From the NCBI GenBank assembly GCA_951828515.1, contig OX639992.1, positions 248,001 to 312,000 of the forward strand: 64,000 nt of DNA, in the 5' to 3' direction. The notes beneath the pieces are model-generated. The model did no database searches. It was given only the letters and a program-made list of their open reading frames with translations, and was not told where the DNA came from. Of the stretch, positions 7,082-23,873 are shown one piece after another. The first letter of the stretch is position 1. Each line of letters begins with the position of its first letter. The stretch comes from an uncultured Poribacteria bacterium. GTDB taxonomy: Bacteria; Poribacteria; WGA-4E; WGA-3G. The position numbers were made by a program, and so were the translations under genes.

Positions 7082-7633
7082 TCAAAAATAGGCATGTATA
7101 CCCATTCCTACAAAAACCCCCGCGAGACCTTTAGATTGTGCGTCGGTTTTTTCCCTGCCAACTCCTTGCCCGACTTCCACGTTCAAACCGAGCGGAATAC
7201 CTCCGAGTGAGAACACAAGTTCACCTCCAAAAGCGAGTCCACCGCCTAACGTCGTGGTAAGGACATCCCGTTCCTCTTTATATTGCCACCCGCCTTCTAA
7301 GGTGAAATAGAGTCGTGATGTGTGCCACCTGCCTTGGTGCTCAAATATAGCGTATGAGACGCCACCTCCGAACATGTGGTCGCTATCCTGATCCTTGAGA
7401 ATAAAACGTCCAACGGTTTGAAAGTATATGGGGGCGAGCCCGGTGTAGCGAAAACTAATTCCACCAAATTCAGAGGTAGCCCCCTGAAGTCCGATGCCAA
7501 ATGGCGAGTCACTCGTGAGGAATTTGCCTTGCTGCGCACCGTTTTGAGCAAGGTCGTTTTCTTGTGCTTGTGCTGAGAAACTGAAGGTTATCCCGATAAG
7601 GATATAGGTCAGACAGAAAATTGTGCGTGTCAT
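7082..7633 (-). CDS. Secreted or outer-membrane protein, unknown function
   Basis: A 183-residue protein with a cleavable signal peptide (hydrophobic ILIGITFSFS, then AQA-QE as cleavage site). The mature part is rich in Gly and aromatic residues in alternating patterns (RLYFTLEGGWQYKEE, TTTLGGGLAFGGELVFSLGG) and ends in Phe (MGIHAYF). This fits a small 8-stranded outer-membrane beta-barrel whose C-terminal Phe is read by the BAM machinery. No family was recognised. It sits just after the first VCBS-repeat gene on the same strand, 56 bases downstream. Confidence 0.6.
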   Translation of the reverse strand: MTRTIFCLTYILIGITFSFSAQAQENDLAQNGAQQGKFLTSDSPFGIGLQGATSEFGGISFRYTGLAPIYFQTVGRFILKDQDSDHMFGGGVSYAIFEHQGRWHTSRLYFTLEGGWQYKEERDVLTTTLGGGLAFGGELVFSLGGIPLGLNVEVGQGVGREKTDAQSKGLAGVFVGMGIHAYF

Positions 7634-7689: not shown

Positions 7690-9372
7690 TTATTGGGCAA
7701 TTAGCAGTGTTATCCAATGTGACTTAGTAGTGGACGGGTGGTATATGAGAATGTCCTGTTTACCGTCCTTGTTGAGATCGGTCAATCGGGTATTCCGTTC
7801 GTCCATAGGCAAGGTGACCGCGACCTTTTTGGGTTGCTGCGCCAATAGGTCGGACCCAGGTACACCGATAAAGACTTGCAGCTCTTCCCGGCTCTTCCCC
7901 ACCAACAGATCCAAGCGTCTATCGCCGTTCACATCTCCCATCAGCACCGGCGATAAGAATATGTTTTGTCTGTCAAAGAGGTTGATGCGGGGTCTAATTT
8001 TATGCGTGGCAGTTGGTTTGTCGGGGTAGATACCGTCTTCGATGCGATAGAATTCAACATCTATCATGATGGAATTACCGAGGAGCGCACGCATCATCCC
8101 CCCGAGACCTATCTTTACGTCTCTGAACATAATGTCGATCTGACCATCGGCATCGAAATCCTGTAACCACACCGACGAATATCCGGAGTGCTGCAATCCA
8201 CCAGCGGTTCCTTGCGGTTGGATCACCGTGCTGACCTCCCGTACGAACAAGATGCCGTCGGGTGTTGGTGTGCCGAAATGCACCTCGTATAGGCTGCGCT
8301 GGTTCAGTAGACTTCGTCCCTCCAGCGAGAGGATCACCAAGTCGGCAACACTGTCGCCATTCACGTCGCGGAACGAGTGCAGCACCCTCATCTTCGTGTT
8401 TTCTCTGAATCCAAAGATGAGCGAAAACGAACTCTCGCCGCCGAATCCGAAGGCGATCGAGTAAGCACCGTCAGTGTCGAATGGCACTTCGGAAATCGTG
8501 AAGATCTCAGCGACAGGAGAAAACAGACCCTGCGCGTCTTGGTAATAAACATCGAAATGGTCCTTGTTCCAGAACACGAGATCGCTGCGCCCGTCCTGGT
8601 TGTAGTCCACCACGTGAACACGACTCAGATACCAAGGAACGGTCGAGGCAGTTATACCGACCTCGCCGTAGCTACGCGTATCATCTAAGGCAATCTCGCC
8701 GAGAAATGGTTCGGGAGGACCGAGTTTTACGGGATCAGTGAATGAACCGTTGCGCAATTGCGTGGATATCCAGAACCCATCGACATCGGGTATCACCAAG
8801 TCGTCGCAGCCATCACGGTTTACGTCTCGGGTGATATCGATATGCGGGATTCCGGCTTCGCCCGTCGCTTTATATTTCATAGTGACTTCCATCAGTGTGC
8901 GTTCCGTCGCCGATTCGGGATCGAACCAATTCAGTTTACCGTGCTCGTACGTAATCAAGCGGTCGTGTCCACCGATGTTGGCTACGTCAACAAACAACAC
9001 TTGCGGACGCAGCGTTACATCGAGTCTCGGTCCCCAAGTGCCGTCGCTGAATGCGTAGACGCGCAAGCAACGGTTGTGGTTCTCATCGACGCTCACCATG
9101 GCAAGATCCGCGATAGCACCCCCGAGCAAGAATCCTGTTAAAACGGTTTGGTGTTTCGCTGTGCTGGTGATAACCTCATACTGCTCAAAGGTCGGCTCAG
9201 CGGCGTGCGACATCGGAACAACATCCTTATCAAGCAAACCTGAACAACCCGACAGGAAGATCCCGAAAACCAGTATGGAAAATAGGCTTCGTTGAGAATG
9301 CCTTGTGCGTGGAGACAGAGAACTAAGTTCATCGGAAATCCAGTATTTGTGGAATGGGTTTCGTTTTTTCAT
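7690..9372 (-). CDS. VCBS/FG-GAP repeat lipoprotein, paralog of the next gene
   Basis: A 560-residue protein with a basic N-terminus, then a hydrophobic stretch ending FLSG-C, a lipobox with lipid Cys at ~43. The mature part has repeated Asp-rich Ca2+-type loops: DVNRDGCDDLVIPD, DYNQDGRSDLVFW, DVNGDSVADLVIL, DFDADGQIDIMF, DVNGDRRLDLLVG and DLNKDGKQDILI. These are FG-GAP/VCBS blades of an integrin-alpha-like propeller. It is probably surface exposed and may bind polysaccharide or protein; the ligand is unknown. GGAG lies 8 bases before the ATG. The promoter carries the 32-bp element at 9402-9433 that is shared with its paralog and the TetR gene. Confidence 0.8.
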   Translation of the reverse strand: MKKRNPFHKYWISDELSSLSPRTRHSQRSLFSILVFGIFLSGCSGLLDKDVVPMSHAAEPTFEQYEVITSTAKHQTVLTGFLLGGAIADLAMVSVDENHNRCLRVYAFSDGTWGPRLDVTLRPQVLFVDVANIGGHDRLITYEHGKLNWFDPESATERTLMEVTMKYKATGEAGIPHIDITRDVNRDGCDDLVIPDVDGFWISTQLRNGSFTDPVKLGPPEPFLGEIALDDTRSYGEVGITASTVPWYLSRVHVVDYNQDGRSDLVFWNKDHFDVYYQDAQGLFSPVAEIFTISEVPFDTDGAYSIAFGFGGESSFSLIFGFRENTKMRVLHSFRDVNGDSVADLVILSLEGRSLLNQRSLYEVHFGTPTPDGILFVREVSTVIQPQGTAGGLQHSGYSSVWLQDFDADGQIDIMFRDVKIGLGGMMRALLGNSIMIDVEFYRIEDGIYPDKPTATHKIRPRINLFDRQNIFLSPVLMGDVNGDRRLDLLVGKSREELQVFIGVPGSDLLAQQPKKVAVTLPMDERNTRLTDLNKDGKQDILIYHPSTTKSHWITLLIAQ

Positions 9373-9401: not shown

Positions 9402-9433
9402 TTAACATAGGTAAATAAATCAACAGTGTTAAC
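9402..9433 (-). promoter_or_regulatory. TetR-type operator and promoter of the 560-aa VCBS gene
   Basis: A 32-bp element with two TTAACA-like half sites 18 bp apart and a partner half site. On the plus strand it reads TTAACATAG, nine bases, TCAACAGTG, TTAAC. The right part is close to the palindrome TTAACA-n-TGTTAA. Read on the minus strand it also gives TTAACA, 17 bases, TATGTT, a plausible -35/-10 pair, so binding would cover the -35 box. The same arrangement occurs at 11195-11226 and 11893-11924. Confidence 0.6.
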
Positions 9434-9460
9434 CTACAGACAAAAATATAACCGATGGAT

Positions 9461-11179
9461 TTATCGGGCAATCATCAACCTCACCCGATTCGGTTCAGTT
9501 CCCGCAGGCAGTTTCTGGGCCCCGTGAGCGTCTCGTAGCGTGAAAGGGTAATGCATAAGGATATCCTGTATCCCGTCCTTGTTGAGGTCAACGATCCACG
9601 TGTATTCCTCGTCGTTAGGAATAGCGACCTTCACTTCCTGAGATTGCCGGGCAAATATTTCTGGTCCCGGTACGCCGACGAAAACAACCATAATCCGTGG
9701 GTGATCGGCGATGAGGAGATCCGAGTAGCCATCGCCGGTAACATCCCCAATGCGCAAGGTTGCGTTGAACGCGCGTGGGTAACTCTGCTGAGCGTTCCGT
9801 CTCTCATGGGTTGCTCCTCGGAGCACAACATCCAATGGTACCCACCCTGGTTCGCGATGGCTGGGTACTCCGTCCAACGCGATGCTACGGGTGGTGTTGG
9901 GTGTATTTGGATAGCGACCTTCATCCCTTTGGTAGAACTCAAGTCCCAGCCCGATGTCATCTCCCATGAACCCCTTGATGCTCTTCCAAAGGCTGCCTTT
10001 GAGGCACTCGGTATGGATCGTCGTAATCATTAGGTCAACCTGACCATCGCAATTGAAGTCGTGCTGGTCCATCCCGAGTTGGATTTTCTCGTCCGACTGG
10101 AACGCGATGTCAGCATCTGGTGCGAAAGTGGTGCCGCCATCGGGTGTTGGCGCGCCGAAATGCACCTCGTAACTGGAATGCTTGCTGGAGATGTCTGTGC
10201 CTGAAAGCTTGAAAACCACCAAGTCAGCGGCTCCGTCGCCGTTCAGATCCGCCAACGAGTGCAGCACCTTTCCTACCATGTTCCCTGTAGTGAGTAAGGA
10301 AAGTCGGTCCGAGTCGAACGCCACATCTGTTGTGAAGGTCTTGGCATTTGGTGCAAACAATCCGCTCTCATCTTGGAGATGAACCTTGAAGTGATCTCCG
10401 TCCCAGAACACGAGGTCGGTGTGACCATCTCTGTTATAGTCGATTTCATGGATACGGCTCTGAGACCAAGGGTCGTATCGATATCCGTCTGCCCCGCGGA
10501 TTCTCTGCATCTCGGTTGGCGGACCGATCTTCACTTTCTCGGCGAACACACCGTCGCTCATCTGGATGAACACCGAGAAGCCATCGGAGTCAGGCACTAC
10601 CAAGTCATCGCGGTCGTCAGCGTTCACATCCCGAGTGACATCTACATGAGGGATTTCGTCTATACGGGGGGGCGTGAAACTGGAAGAGACCGCCACCAAC
10701 AAGTGTTCCGTCGCCGAGTCCGAATCGAACCAGTTCAGGTGCCCGTTTTCATACGTGATTAAGCGATCACGTCCCCCGATGTTTGCGACATCAACGAACA
10801 ATACTTCGGCGCGCAGGGTTGCGTCGAGTTTCGGTGCCCAGGTACCGTCGTCATAAGTGTAGATGCGTAGGTGTCGGTTGCCATTTTCATCGATGTACAC
10901 CACGACAACCTCCGCGATAGCACCACCGAGAAGAAACCCCGTCATAACAGTCTGCCGTTTCGCAATACCGGTGACGATTTCGTACTCATCGAAAGTGAAT
11001 TCCGTGTGGGTAGACACCGCCGGATCGGCTGCTACGCTGGGAAACCCCAAGTAATTTAACAGGAATACACCAAAAATTAGTACAGAGAACAGACTTCGTC
11101 GATGATTCCTTGTCCGTCCGGTTCCCGACTTCGGCACTGCAGCAGCTAAGCGTTTGCGGAATAGGTCTCGCTTTTTCAT
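9461..11179 (-). CDS. VCBS/FG-GAP repeat secreted protein
   Basis: A paralog of the gene at 7690 (similar N-terminal KKR-D/N-x-F-x-K, same blade order, similar end LMIAR versus LLIAQ). Asp-rich loops include DVNADDRDDLVVPD, DYNRDGHTDLVFW, DLNGDGAADLVVF, DFNCDGQVDLMI, DVTGDGYSDLLIA and DLNKDGIQDILM. The signal segment LFSVLIFGVFLLNYLG has lost the lipid Cys seen in the paralog, so this copy is probably secreted rather than lipid anchored. The start at 11179 (MKKRDLF, 572 aa) is chosen because the ATG four codons earlier overlaps the expected transcript start, and its GGAG serves as ribosome site for the second ATG. Confidence 0.8.
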   Translation of the reverse strand: MKKRDLFRKRLAAAVPKSGTGRTRNHRRSLFSVLIFGVFLLNYLGFPSVAADPAVSTHTEFTFDEYEIVTGIAKRQTVMTGFLLGGAIAEVVVVYIDENGNRHLRIYTYDDGTWAPKLDATLRAEVLFVDVANIGGRDRLITYENGHLNWFDSDSATEHLLVAVSSSFTPPRIDEIPHVDVTRDVNADDRDDLVVPDSDGFSVFIQMSDGVFAEKVKIGPPTEMQRIRGADGYRYDPWSQSRIHEIDYNRDGHTDLVFWDGDHFKVHLQDESGLFAPNAKTFTTDVAFDSDRLSLLTTGNMVGKVLHSLADLNGDGAADLVVFKLSGTDISSKHSSYEVHFGAPTPDGGTTFAPDADIAFQSDEKIQLGMDQHDFNCDGQVDLMITTIHTECLKGSLWKSIKGFMGDDIGLGLEFYQRDEGRYPNTPNTTRSIALDGVPSHREPGWVPLDVVLRGATHERRNAQQSYPRAFNATLRIGDVTGDGYSDLLIADHPRIMVVFVGVPGPEIFARQSQEVKVAIPNDEEYTWIVDLNKDGIQDILMHYPFTLRDAHGAQKLPAGTEPNRVRLMIAR

Positions 11180-11194
11180 TTTATTCTCCATATA

Positions 11195-11226
11195 TTAACA
11201 TAGATAAATAAGTTAACAGTGTAAAG
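11195..11226 (-). promoter_or_regulatory. TetR-type operator and promoter of the 572-aa VCBS gene
   Basis: The second copy of the shared element: TTAACATAG, nine bases, TTAACAGTG, TAAAG. Spacing is identical to the other two copies. On the minus strand it contains TTTACA, 17 bases, TATGTT. With that -10 box the transcript would start near 11190, which supports ATG 11179 as the real start of the gene. Confidence 0.6.
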
Positions 11227-11272
11227 TAATCAGCGAAAAAATATATTCGACTTTCGCCAAATAGTTTTGAAT

Positions 11273-11878
11273 TTATACTTTCAATCCTTCGATCGTTGTG
11301 TGAATTACTGTGTCAATCAATTTGTCCTTCTCAGTCCAAGGGAAGTCGGGAAAATCAATCAGGAGCAGTGTGACACCGTGAACCGCTGACCACATCACCT
11401 GACCGGTAGTTTCGATATCCACTTGCCGGAATATATTCTGTCGAACGCATTCAGAGACCATTTCACGCAAGTAGTTGAACACCTTTTCACCGACTGATCC
11501 CTCTTGGAGACCTAACCCCTTTTGGAACTCGGGTCGGATGACAAACGTCAGTTTGTAATCTTGTGGATATTTGAGACCGAACTCAACATAAGCTTGCCCA
11601 CTTTTTCTGAGGGTCTCAACGGGGTCGCTTTTATCATTTTTCAGCCGCTCAAGTGTCTTCAACAGGTTCAGGAGTGTGTCCTTGCAAACCGAGTCTAAAA
11701 GATCTGCCTTGTCCTTGAAATAGAGATAGATCGTCGTTGGTGAGTATTCGATCTTGTTGGCAATTTTTCGCATAGAGACGTTTTCATAACCGTCATTGAC
11801 AAACAACTCTCGTGCGGCGACGAGGATTTGCCGCCGTAACTGTTCTTTTTCTCTTGCCCTTCGTTCTTTGGTACCCAT
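11273..11878 (-). CDS. TetR/AcrR-family transcription regulator
   Basis: A 201-residue protein. Residues ~12-60 form the TetR helix-turn-helix domain: RRQILVAARELFVNDGYENV, SMRKIANKIEYSPTTIYLYF and KDKADLLDSV, with the typical TIYLYFKDK recognition end. The C-terminal ~140 residues form the variable ligand and dimer domain (similar to those with VWSAVHGVTLLLI). TetR proteins bind short palindromes and are released by a small ligand. The same palindrome lies in front of this gene and of both VCBS genes, so it most likely represses itself and them. AAGGG is 8 bases before the ATG. Confidence 0.88.
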   Translation of the reverse strand: MGTKERRAREKEQLRRQILVAARELFVNDGYENVSMRKIANKIEYSPTTIYLYFKDKADLLDSVCKDTLLNLLKTLERLKNDKSDPVETLRKSGQAYVEFGLKYPQDYKLTFVIRPEFQKGLGLQEGSVGEKVFNYLREMVSECVRQNIFRQVDIETTGQVMWSAVHGVTLLLIDFPDFPWTEKDKLIDTVIHTTIEGLKV

Positions 11879-11892
11879 AGCTGAAACCCTTG

Positions 11893-11924
11893 TTTACATA
11901 GTAATCTAACTTAACAGTGTTAAC
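11893..11924 (-). promoter_or_regulatory. TetR operator upstream of the tetR gene
   Basis: The third and best copy of the 32-bp element: TTTACATAG, nine bases, TTAACAGTG, TTAAC. The stretch 11911-11923 is a perfect odd palindrome TTAACA-G-TGTTAA. It begins immediately downstream of the -10 box of a consensus promoter (11925-11953), so a bound regulator would sit on the transcript start. Confidence 0.65.
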
Positions 11925-11953
11925 ATTATACCATATATTTTTCTCTTTGTCAA
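11925..11953 (-). promoter_or_regulatory. Consensus sigma70-type promoter of tetR
   Basis: On the minus strand TTGACA (plus 11948-11953), 17 bases, TATAAT (plus 11925-11930). Both hexamers are perfect. The transcript would start near 11918, inside the operator palindrome, giving a leader of about 40 bases. Confidence 0.7.
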
Positions 11954-12386: not shown

Positions 12387-14108
12387 TTACTGCAAGATGA
12401 CCATTTTGCGCAGGAGGGAGATATGATCCGCCTGCAGTTGATAGAAATAGATGCCACTCGCCACGCGTTCACCCCTATTATTTCTGCCGTCCCAATACGC
12501 CGCACGGCTACGACTCGTGTAGTAACCCGCACGTTGATGACCGAGATCCAACGCCCGAACGACCCGACCCTGCGCATCATAGATCGTAATCTTGACATCG
12601 CTCGTATTTGATAACTGATAGGGTATCCACGTCTCTGGGTTGAATGGGTTGGGATAGTTCGCCGAGAGCGCCGTTTCGCTGGGGACTGCGTCGGCAGGGA
12701 TCCTTCTCGGTGCCCCCTTTACCGCATCTATGACCGTCAGCGGTAAATTCGGGGATTTGACGTATTTATACCCTGCAAAACGAGAGACCTGCGGTAGCGT
12801 TTCGATATCGATCAAGACGGCATCCGTCGTGCCGGGCGTGCGTGTCACAGTGAAGGTCTCGCTTTCGATCTTGCCAACGGGTATCGTGATCCTATTGCTT
12901 CCACCATCGATGCTCCCGTTGACAACGCTGACCGTCAAGGTCATAGAAGGCGGCGCACCGGTATCTACTGTTGCCTTGAACTGAGGTGCCTCAATCTCAA
13001 TCCGTTTTAGTGACACCGTCAGCGATAGCGGGTCAACAGTATTGTTTCCCAGGTCGAACTGCTCTAGGGCGGTGAGACCCACAAAAATACCCGCTGGTAA
13101 ACTACTCAATTTGTTGTCGGACAGGTCGAGCTGCGTCAGGGCGGTGAGACCCTCAAAGACATCCGCCAGCAAATTATTCAAATCATTAAAGGACAGGTCG
13201 AGCTGCGTCAGGGCGGTGAGACCCTCAAAGACATCCGCCAGCAAATTATTCAAATCATTAAAGGACAGGTCGAGCTTCTTCAGGGCGGTGAGGTCATCAA
13301 AAATACCCGCTGGTAAACTGCTCAATTTGTTGTCGTACAGGTAGAGCTTCTCCAGGGCGGTGAGGTCATCAAAAATACCCGCTGGTAAACTGCTCAATTT
13401 GTTGTCCGCCAGCCAGAGCTGCGTCAGGGCGGTGTTTTTATCAAAAATACCCGCTGGTAAACTGCTCAAGTCGTTATCGTACAGATCGAGCTGCTCCAGG
13501 GCGGTGAGGTCATCAAAGATACCCGACGGCAAACTACTCAATTCGCTGTCGTACAGGTGGAGCTGCGTCAGGGCGGTGAGGTCATCAAAAATACCCGCTG
13601 GTAAACTGCTCAAGTCGTTATTGCTCAGCCAGAGCTTCTTCAGGGCGGTGTTTTTATCAAAAATATCCTCATCTAAACTGCTCAAGTCATTATTGCTCAG
13701 CCAGAGTTCCTCCAGGGCGCTGAGACCCTCAAAAATACCCGCTGGTAAACTGCTCAAGTCGTTCGCGTACAGATCGAGCTTCTCCAGGAGTTTGAGGTCA
13801 TCAAAGATACCCGCTGGTAAACTGCTCAAGTCGTTCGCGTACAGGTAGAGTTCCTCCAGGGCGGTGAGTCCGTTGAAGTCGCCCTCTTTTAGGGCAGTGA
13901 TGTTCTGGCTTTGAAGGTCAATCGATGTAATATCCACGAGGTCTGCCGCGGTTACATCGGCGCAAGCGTCTCTGTTTGGTAAGGCGTCAACGATCGCATC
14001 GCGGACCTGAAGCGTGCGATTACAGACCGGCACAAATTGCGAATATCCAACAGGACTAAATACGATCGCAGCAAAGAAAATAGATAAAAGTGTGGAAAAA
14101 CGTTTCAT
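12387..14108 (-). CDS. Secreted leucine-rich-repeat protein with C-terminal FlgD-like tail
   Basis: A 573-residue protein. A signal peptide (MKRFSTLLSIFFAAIVFSPVGYS) is followed by a short Cys-bearing cap and eleven 24-residue LRRs plus a partial one (~81-362), with consensus L-T-A-L-x-x-L-x-L-x-x-N-x-L-S-S-L-P-A-G-I-F-D-D. Then comes a ~100-residue beta-domain, and from ~484 the tail NYPNPFNPETWIPYQL...YDAQGRVVRALDLG...YWDGRNNRGERVASGIYFYQL. This tail is a FlgD/T9SS-type C-terminal domain that probably directs export or surface attachment. The start at 14108 is chosen because the signal peptide begins there and AAGGA precedes it; an upstream ATG at 14261 would place 51 odd residues before it. 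Probably a surface adhesin or ligand-binding protein. Confidence 0.85.
   Translation of the reverse strand: MKRFSTLLSIFFAAIVFSPVGYSQFVPVCNRTLQVRDAIVDALPNRDACADVTAADLVDITSIDLQSQNITALKEGDFNGLTALEELYLYANDLSSLPAGIFDDLKLLEKLDLYANDLSSLPAGIFEGLSALEELWLSNNDLSSLDEDIFDKNTALKKLWLSNNDLSSLPAGIFDDLTALTQLHLYDSELSSLPSGIFDDLTALEQLDLYDNDLSSLPAGIFDKNTALTQLWLADNKLSSLPAGIFDDLTALEKLYLYDNKLSSLPAGIFDDLTALKKLDLSFNDLNNLLADVFEGLTALTQLDLSFNDLNNLLADVFEGLTALTQLDLSDNKLSSLPAGIFVGLTALEQFDLGNNTVDPLSLTVSLKRIEIEAPQFKATVDTGAPPSMTLTVSVVNGSIDGGSNRITIPVGKIESETFTVTRTPGTTDAVLIDIETLPQVSRFAGYKYVKSPNLPLTVIDAVKGAPRRIPADAVPSETALSANYPNPFNPETWIPYQLSNTSDVKITIYDAQGRVVRALDLGHQRAGYYTSRSRAAYWDGRNNRGERVASGIYFYQLQADHISLLRKMVILQ
13119..13262 (-). 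repeat. Exact tandem duplication of a 72-bp LRR unit
   Basis: Bases 13119-13190 and 13191-13262 are identical, encoding the same 24-residue repeat twice (LTALTQLDLSFNDLNNLLAD...). Other repeats in the array differ by several bases each, so this duplication looks recent. Confidence 0.9.
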
Positions 14109-14672
14109 AGTTTCAGTTCCTTCCATTTTAGGGTAACGTTGGGCTTCGATTGTAGCGCAACCCAACCTATATTTGATTCCGTCAACCTCATCTGAAAAGG
14201 CGGACAACAGTGGAGATGATGTTTCAACATAAGATGTCGGTTTGTGAACAGAGACACTCAAACGTGTCTCTCACACAAATCTTCTTGTGAAATATAGCAG
14301 ACGTGCCAAGGTCTCTGTCTAAGCAAAAATATAAGTGTCCTGTTAAGTCTATTTTTAAATTATTCACAATTTTATTTTTATTGACCTATCAAGATAGTAA
14401 AATTATACTTTAATCCGACATAGAAGTCAAATTCAATTTGTATAACTTGCCCGAAGAAAGCACAATAACTAAAGCAGTGGGCTTTCATTCCGTCGATTCC
14501 CGTAAAATCAACGCTATCGCTGCTTTTTGTCTTGTCTATTTTGAGCGATTTTGCTACAATCCATTTTTTAGAAAACCATAGACTGATATACGCAAGCAAC
14601 TCTACATCCCACACTAAAATAATAGGGTTTAGGTCCGAAATCTGAATCGTATTTTTGACACAGGAGGAAAAT
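14109..14672. other. Intergenic region between divergent LRR and LamG genes
   Basis: About 560 bases, AT-rich towards the middle (14340-14410). It should hold the promoters of both divergent genes. No strong paired -35/-10 boxes or RNA structure could be named with confidence, and no coding frame is convincing. Confidence 0.4.
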
Positions 14673-22855: not shown

Positions 22856-23873
22856 ACGTGAGTTTGATAAATAATTTAAGAATTTTTTCTATAAAGAGAA
22901 CCCTTTTGGTATAATGAAGTTATCACATTTCTTTACCCAAAAGGAGTTCTCCAATGAGCATTATAGCACTTTTCTGTGCAATAGACGACTTTTTCGTTGC
23001 TTACGAGAAATGGATGGCAACATCTTGTTTACCAGAGGCGACACGCACAGAAACGCGCGGACGTCCGCGGCACCTTCATCCGAGCGAGGTGATGACGCTC
23101 CTGATCGCCTTCCATCAAAGCAACTATCGGACATTTAAGCACTTTTATCTCAAACATGCCTGCGTCTATTGGCGCGCTGAGTTTCCGCATCTGGTAAGTT
23201 ATACGCGCTTCGTGCAGTTAAAAAAAGAAGTCTTGACGCTTTTGAGACTTTATTTTGCCACGACCCTCGGGGACTGTAGCGGTGTGTCCTTCGTGGATTC
23301 GACACGCCTGCGGGTCTGCGATAACAGGCGGATTTCATCGCATCGCGTCTTCGCAGATGTCGCCGAATGCTCGAAAACTTCTATGGGATGGTTTTACGGG
23401 TTTAAACTTCACCTCGTTATCAATCACACAGGCGACCTCTTAGATGTTGCGTTGACCCCCGGGAATATAGATGATCGCAAACCGCTGCGAAAGTTCGCAG
23501 AGCGACTTCACGGGGGTCTCTACGCAGATAGAGGGTATATCTCCAAAGACATTCGCGAAGAACTCCGTGAGCAAGGTGTAAACTTGGTTTACAAAGTCCG
23601 TAAGAACATGGAACCCCTGGACTTATCGGTTTCAGATGAGGTGCTGCTGAAAAAGCGGGTGCTCATTGAATCGGTGATTCGGGAACTGAAAACACAGATG
23701 CAGGTGGAGCATAGTCGACATAGAAGTTTTGAAAACTTCCAAGTCAATGTTTTCTCTGCTTTGATCGCGTATCAGCTGTTGGAGAAAAAACCCTCGCTGA
23801 ACTTCGATGAACTTCAGCAAACCAGCGATTTACCTGTGCTTTTCTAAAGACTAAACTTTTTTCAAACTCACGT
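22856..23873 (+). mobile_element. IS982-family insertion sequence with target duplication
   Basis: A 1018-bp element with inverted ends ACGTGAGTTTGA (22856 onward) and its complement TCAAACTCACGT ending at 23873. It is flanked by a 7-bp direct repeat TATAAAA (22849-22855 and 23874-23880), a target duplication of a size known for IS982 elements. Size, single transposase gene and ends all look intact. The left copy of the target duplication is made from the right end of the MITE at 22717-22852, so the IS jumped into the MITE terminus. Confidence 0.9.
22954..23847 (+). CDS. IS982-family transposase
   Basis: A 297-residue DDE transposase. The N-terminal part has the family pattern (RGRPRHLHPSEVMTLLIAFHQSNYRTFKHFY). 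Catalytic residues are visible as D115 (FVDSTRLRV), D192 (GLYADRGYIS) and E239 (RVLIESVIRELK), followed by the typical VEHSRHRSFENFQVNVFSALIAYQ. AAGGAG lies 7 bases before the ATG. The frame is uninterrupted and the element has clean ends, so it is probably active or was recently. Confidence 0.92.
   Translation: MSIIALFCAIDDFFVAYEKWMATSCLPEATRTETRGRPRHLHPSEVMTLLIAFHQSNYRTFKHFYLKHACVYWRAEFPHLVSYTRFVQLKKEVLTLLRLYFATTLGDCSGVSFVDSTRLRVCDNRRISSHRVFADVAECSKTSMGWFYGFKLHLVINHTGDLLDVALTPGNIDDRKPLRKFAERLHGGLYADRGYISKDIREELREQGVNLVYKVRKNMEPLDLSVSDEVLLKKRVLIESVIRELKTQMQVEHSRHRSFENFQVNVFSALIAYQLLEKKPSLNFDELQQTSDLPVLF

Follow-up and report, generated by a model that had tools for sequence, protein, structure and literature searches.

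The 31-bp elements that precede a tetR gene and two genes coding FG-GAP/VCBS propeller proteins (V2 and V1) in an uncultured poribacterium are very likely the operators of the TetR-family regulator encoded at 11273–11878. This protein would repress its own gene and control the propeller proteins as well as, in part of the species, a glycan deacetylase. About 40 genomes of Candidatus Poribacteria have kept the tetR-VCBS locus together with its elements.

Organization of the locus

The source genome is a single contig of 5.85 Mb, from which a stretch of 64,000 nucleotides (the window) was analysed. Its near relatives are metagenome-assembled genomes of Candidatus Poribacteria, a phylum known from marine sponges in which the FG-GAP/VCBS domain was noted as abundant (PMC3909097). 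The genes of the locus are transcribed from the minus strand in the order tetR, V2, V1 and a gene coding a 183-residue protein (Table 1). The sizes of the first three are confirmed, as is the position of one element in front of each given in the initial annotation. Upstream of tetR, a gene at 12387–14261 (minus strand) codes a protein of near-identical leucine-rich repeats that carries a secretion tail at its C-terminus (LRR_8, Por_Secre_tail); it lies outside the conserved unit. An ORF resembling, by eye, an insertion-sequence DDE transposase is found at 22954–23847 (plus strand).

Table 1. Features of the tetR-VCBS locus, with positions counted in the window
Feature	Position	Strand	Evidence
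tetR, 201-residue TetR-family regulator (TetR_N + TetR_C_33)	11273..11878	-	Pfam; orthologs; fold model
V2, 572-residue FG-GAP/VCBS propeller protein	9461..11179	-	Pfam PF13517; model; orthologs always near tetR
V1, 560-residue FG-GAP/VCBS paralog with lipobox LSGC	7690..9372	-	Pfam PF13517; alignment
183-residue protein with signal peptide, small outer-membrane beta-barrel predicted by eye	7082..7633	-	Homologues in relatives
Predicted operator of tetR, 31 bp, first base one past the -10 box	11893..11923	-	Profile and matrix scans; relatives
Predicted operator/promoter element of V2, 31 bp, TTTACA-17-TATGTT inside	11195..11225	-	Profile and matrix scans
Predicted operator/promoter element of V1, 31 bp, TTAACA-17-TATGTT inside	9402..9432	-	Profile and matrix scans
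tetR promoter, TTGACA-17-TATAAT	11925..11953	-	Sequence scan; relatives
Weak hairpin resembling a terminator, with T tract, in the tetR–V2 interval	11235..11263	-	Sequence; hairpins in relatives
Terminator-like hairpin with T tract, separating V2 from the V1 element	9442..9467	-	Scan, stem 9467–9452

The two VCBS proteins match PF13517 (FG-GAP_3) with 66.4 and 55.0 bits against a cut-off of 26.9. No published regulator or function of this propeller family was found in the literature searched. The V2 model is all-beta and propeller-like with moderate confidence (mean pLDDT 72). Its PDB fold matches, one of which is a GlcNAc-binding lectin from Agrocybe, reach a TM-score of at most 0.42 among the matches listed, and no ligand is claimed from them because these scores are low. 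The lipobox cysteine (LSGC) is found in V1 and in most relatives, while a tyrosine occupies its position in V2 of the source genome and in several other V2 proteins, so that perhaps one paralog is lipidated and the other may be released. The earlier designation of both as surface proteins is a prediction, with a lipoprotein signal in V1 and the tyrosine in V2 of the source genome.

The 31-bp element in the source genome

Read on the minus strand, positions 9402–9432, 11195–11225 and 11893–11923 are TTAACACTGTTGATTTATTTACCTATGTTAA, TTTACACTGTTAACTTATTTATCTATGTTAA and TTAACACTGTTAAGTTAGATTACTATGTAAA, respectively. The three common elements are found where the initial annotation had placed them, with the correction that the informative unit has 31 bp instead of 32 bp. 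The perfect palindrome TTAACA-G-TGTTAA that it had recognized in one of them is present as a single copy in the 5.85-Mb genome, at tetR. When one mismatch is tolerated, the 13-bp palindrome has 24 matches genome-wide against 26 for its reversed control. A scan for the bare palindrome, as had been proposed, is uninformative at this chance level: the palindrome proves nothing alone and the evidence is carried by the long element. For this reason a 31-position profile was used in its place. Across the whole genome this sequence-only profile, of whose 32 training rows three come from the source genome, gives E-values below 1e-4 only at these three sites and at one further site. A weight matrix for which only other genomes were used (54 distinct sites) likewise gives the three sites the top scores of the window (46.0, 42.8 and 40.6 bits). 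The best further, non-overlapping match in the window has 5.3 bits and the maximum in ten Markov sequences is 9.3 bits.

Conservation in Poribacteria

A TetR ortholog (82–93% identity) is found in 39 of 59 relatives, with one to three VCBS genes behind it. Lack of conservation of the palindrome upstream of orthologs had been named beforehand as an outcome refuting the proposal, which withstood this check. The element precedes tetR in 35 of the 39 scored loci, the remaining four being cut contigs or mis-called starts, and it also precedes 51 VCBS genes. A few VCBS genes lack it, part of which sit behind another gene in an operon. The consensus is TTAACANTGTTAAGTTAAATNACTNTGTAAA for the tetR-type element and TTAACACTGTTAANTTATTTATCTATGTTAA for the VCBS-type element (51 VCBS genes), with an information content of 1.60–1.64 bits per position within the element compared to 0.2–0.5 in the outer upstream flank.

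Regulator and VCBS genes co-occur: among 50 genomes, including the source genome, 34 have both, 14 have neither and two, both fragmented drafts, have VCBS genes only. Sites are present in 42 of 60 genomes, which comprise all 40 that have a TetR ortholog, the fragmented genome G014, and G044, whose site precedes a truncated VCBS relic. Note that seven loci (L175, L179, L176, L177, L180, L075 and L089) are partial duplications with a truncated or absent tetR, whose operators are kept in front of VCBS or deacetylase genes.

The two element types differ in their relation to promoters. The perfect TTGACA-17-TATAAT sequence reported in front of tetR is confirmed (11953–11925, minus strand). At all 35 scored loci the tetR promoter (sigma-70) has 11–12 of the 12 consensus bases with a 17-base spacer, and the operator starts at just two positions, either sharing the final base of the -10 box or one past it (35/35). 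The -35 and -10 boxes proposed for the VCBS genes, TTAACA or TTTACA spaced by 17 bases from TATGTT, exist at both genes, but promoter-like pairs of this quality (9/12) are no commoner than by chance (6 found against 6.0 expected from shuffled sequence). For the relative L082 these boxes would put the expected VCBS transcript start downstream of the ribosome-binding site. An alternative -10 box TATAA[CG], located upstream in many relatives, is absent from the source genome and has no conserved -35 box; it was not preferred. Positions 25 and 29 of the element, which would belong to the -10 box TATGTT, are A and T, respectively, each in 47 of 51 VCBS-type elements, and are kept only in this type; the tetR-type element, which has a separate promoter, is variable at position 25 and has A at position 29. 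These class-specific bases fit a VCBS element that is promoter and operator at once and a tetR element that is operator only.

The same palindrome in distant TetR relatives

Homologues of the regulator from five other phyla (24–40% identity) carry TTAACANTGTTAA before their own tetR gene. They were retrieved with the seed peptide SMRKIA[NS]K, and the set is enriched for like binders because this peptide lies within the DNA-binding domain. With 0–2 mismatches, TTAACANTGTTAA is found at most 150 bp upstream of the homologue's own tetR in 18 of 25 cases (L144–L149, L152–L155, L157, L161, L163–L167 and L170). Ten are exact, four of them from closely related Pseudobutyrivibrio. This score is attained by only 0–4.5% of background windows taken from these loci. 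In the homologues devoid of the palindrome the recognition helix is mostly different. The set is independent of descent within Poribacteria. Its palindromes, each upstream of a related tetR, tie this sequence to the regulator. The genes next to these tetR homologues differ: Bacteroidota and Balneolaceae have beta-oxidation enzymes there, Pseudobutyrivibrio and Butyrivibrio ABC exporters, Bacillus and Psychrobacillus DUF2306 membrane proteins, and Clostridium FMN-binding and MFS genes, which suggests an operator maintained across phyla while target genes were exchanged.

The 31-bp poribacterial element contains an inner dyad of 13 bp and, at a distance of 18 bp, a second, weaker one, an arrangement that suggests occupancy by two TetR dimers. 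Sites of 22–32 bp are used by TetR proteins of the dimer-of-dimers class and sites of 15–17 bp by single dimers (PMC4150764). The length of the element is within the range of the former, represented by QacR, CgmR, Ms6564 and CprB, from which the present system differs in operator sequence and targets; its two-dimer stoichiometry is a prediction from site length and the second dyad. It is possible, though rather unlikely, that the 13-bp palindrome alone is the operator of one dimer and that the right half is kept for another reason, for example promoter function. The recurrence in other phyla concerns the 13-bp part, and in VCBS-type elements the right half could serve as a -10 box, its key bases being maintained in this type only. 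This half (ACTNTGTAAA) is, however, conserved also in tetR-type elements, which have a full promoter of their own, and the homologues from Psychrobacillus and Bacillus feature two tandem copies of the dyad, 14 bp apart. These copies and the site-size classes count against the one-dimer reading.

Predicted mode of regulation

The TetR protein would shut the strong promoter of its own gene from a site immediately past the -10 box, and would repress V2 and V1, the latter with the barrel protein gene, by covering their promoter region. Binding of a ligand would relieve repression of the whole unit at once, comprising the regulator, the FG-GAP propeller (lipo)proteins with their barrel partner and, where several species have it, the NodB-type polysaccharide deacetylase. 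The hairpins found after tetR and after V2 point to separate transcription units. The former was not flagged by the terminator scan of the source genome's locus; hairpins at this position are kept in many relative loci and it was graded weak because they are degenerate in several others.

An operator through which TetR activates the VCBS promoters, or acts both ways, while repressing its own gene is improbable. The VCBS promoters are weak by consensus (9/12) and the element is placed differently at these genes than at tetR, features that can be reconciled with activation. Its palindrome, however, covers the putative -35 box and the element reaches the -10 box, a position expected to block the polymerase. 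The tetR element abuts the -10 box of an almost perfect promoter, and the majority of TetR proteins are repressors. Repression at all three genes is thus the preferred reading.

Probable extension of the regulon to a deacetylase and a predicted barrel protein

The fourth site of the source genome (C1:3663285–3663312) is found outside the window, 3.4 Mb away, so that the predicted regulon, whose conserved sites bear out the initial annotation, is not only local as proposed there. This site precedes a gene coding a NodB-type polysaccharide deacetylase, within a copy of the tetR promoter layout (L171, G000:C1:3655000–3672000). The protein matches PF01522 with 117.3 bits (cut-off 23.1) and has the motifs TFDDGPS and HSYSHP, features shared with PdaB, PgdA and NodB; unlike these it is under every NCBIfam equivalog cut-off and is predicted to be under TetR-type control. 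A small lipoprotein gene follows the deacetylase gene in the source genome and in G035 (L098).

Element-led deacetylase genes are present in six genomes (the source genome and five more). Two of their leaders retain an apparent start of tetR, from which it follows that control of the deacetylase was probably acquired by duplication of the tetR locus and subsequent deletion. Three other genomes (G021, G024 and G035) have the deacetylase gene directly behind an element-led V2 and without an element of its own; it would therefore be read from the V2 promoter. Paralogous deacetylases (69–75% identity), taken as negative control, have no element within 420 bp, and neither do three closer copies (G026, G034 and G028). 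The copying recorded in the leaders and the paralogy of the VCBS genes might also be taken to mean that the shared sequence is mere homology from promoter-region duplication, unbound by this TetR, which is very improbable considering that the flanks have diverged and the element has not, that tetR-type and VCBS-type elements have class-specific bases and that the palindrome also precedes related tetR genes of other phyla.

A homologue of the gene coding the predicted 183-residue barrel protein is found in 35 of 40 relative loci, nearly always just behind the last VCBS gene. The protein has no Pfam match and its gene, which has no element of its own, is probably in one operon with V1. The regulon very probably takes in this gene downstream of V1.

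Family and candidate ligand of the regulator

The regulator matches PF00440 (54.9 bits) and PF13305 (34.0 bits), both above cut-off, and its model has the all-helical TetR fold (pLDDT 90.5). By sequence and fold comparison the regulator is close to FadR, PvrA, FasR, Rv0078 and EthR2. Bacillus FadR, a TetR-type acyl-CoA-responsive repressor (PDB 3whb, 3whc, 5gpa), is among the best matches of both kinds, and several operator-sharing homologues of the poribacterial protein adjoin beta-oxidation genes. This FadR-type likeness and the fatty-acid gene neighbours make an acyl-CoA or a lipid no more than a candidate ligand. The regulator differs from FadR in its score of 47.6 bits, which is under the equivalog cut-off of 200 (NCBIfam NF053878), and in its predicted targets, which are surface proteins and a deacetylase.

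Significance

A TetR protein with a small autoregulated regulon is of a known kind. The literature searched (the motif; TetR or FG-GAP in Poribacteria; TetR with polysaccharide deacetylase) yielded nothing relevant, and no earlier description of this regulon, its operator or the TetR subfamily was found there.

Poribacteria are uncultured, dominant symbionts of sponges, and their surface repeat proteins have often been proposed to mediate host contact. A speculative and rather doubtful extension of the findings is that a lipid- or acyl-CoA-sensing TetR lineage, whose operator TTAACANTGTTAA is kept across several phyla, has been rewired in the sponge-symbiotic Poribacteria, where it switches a surface glycan interface. 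Propeller lipoproteins of a lectin-like kind would make up this interface together with an outer-membrane barrel and a polysaccharide deacetylase, and the signal would probably be a host or membrane-lipid cue. The predicted operator and its compact regulon, present in about 40 genomes, would give a handle on when these surface proteins are made that can be tested in vitro and in existing sponge metatranscriptomes. Occurrence of the palindrome beside beta-oxidation, ABC-exporter or MFS genes elsewhere suggests a DNA code that is kept while the genes placed under it change.
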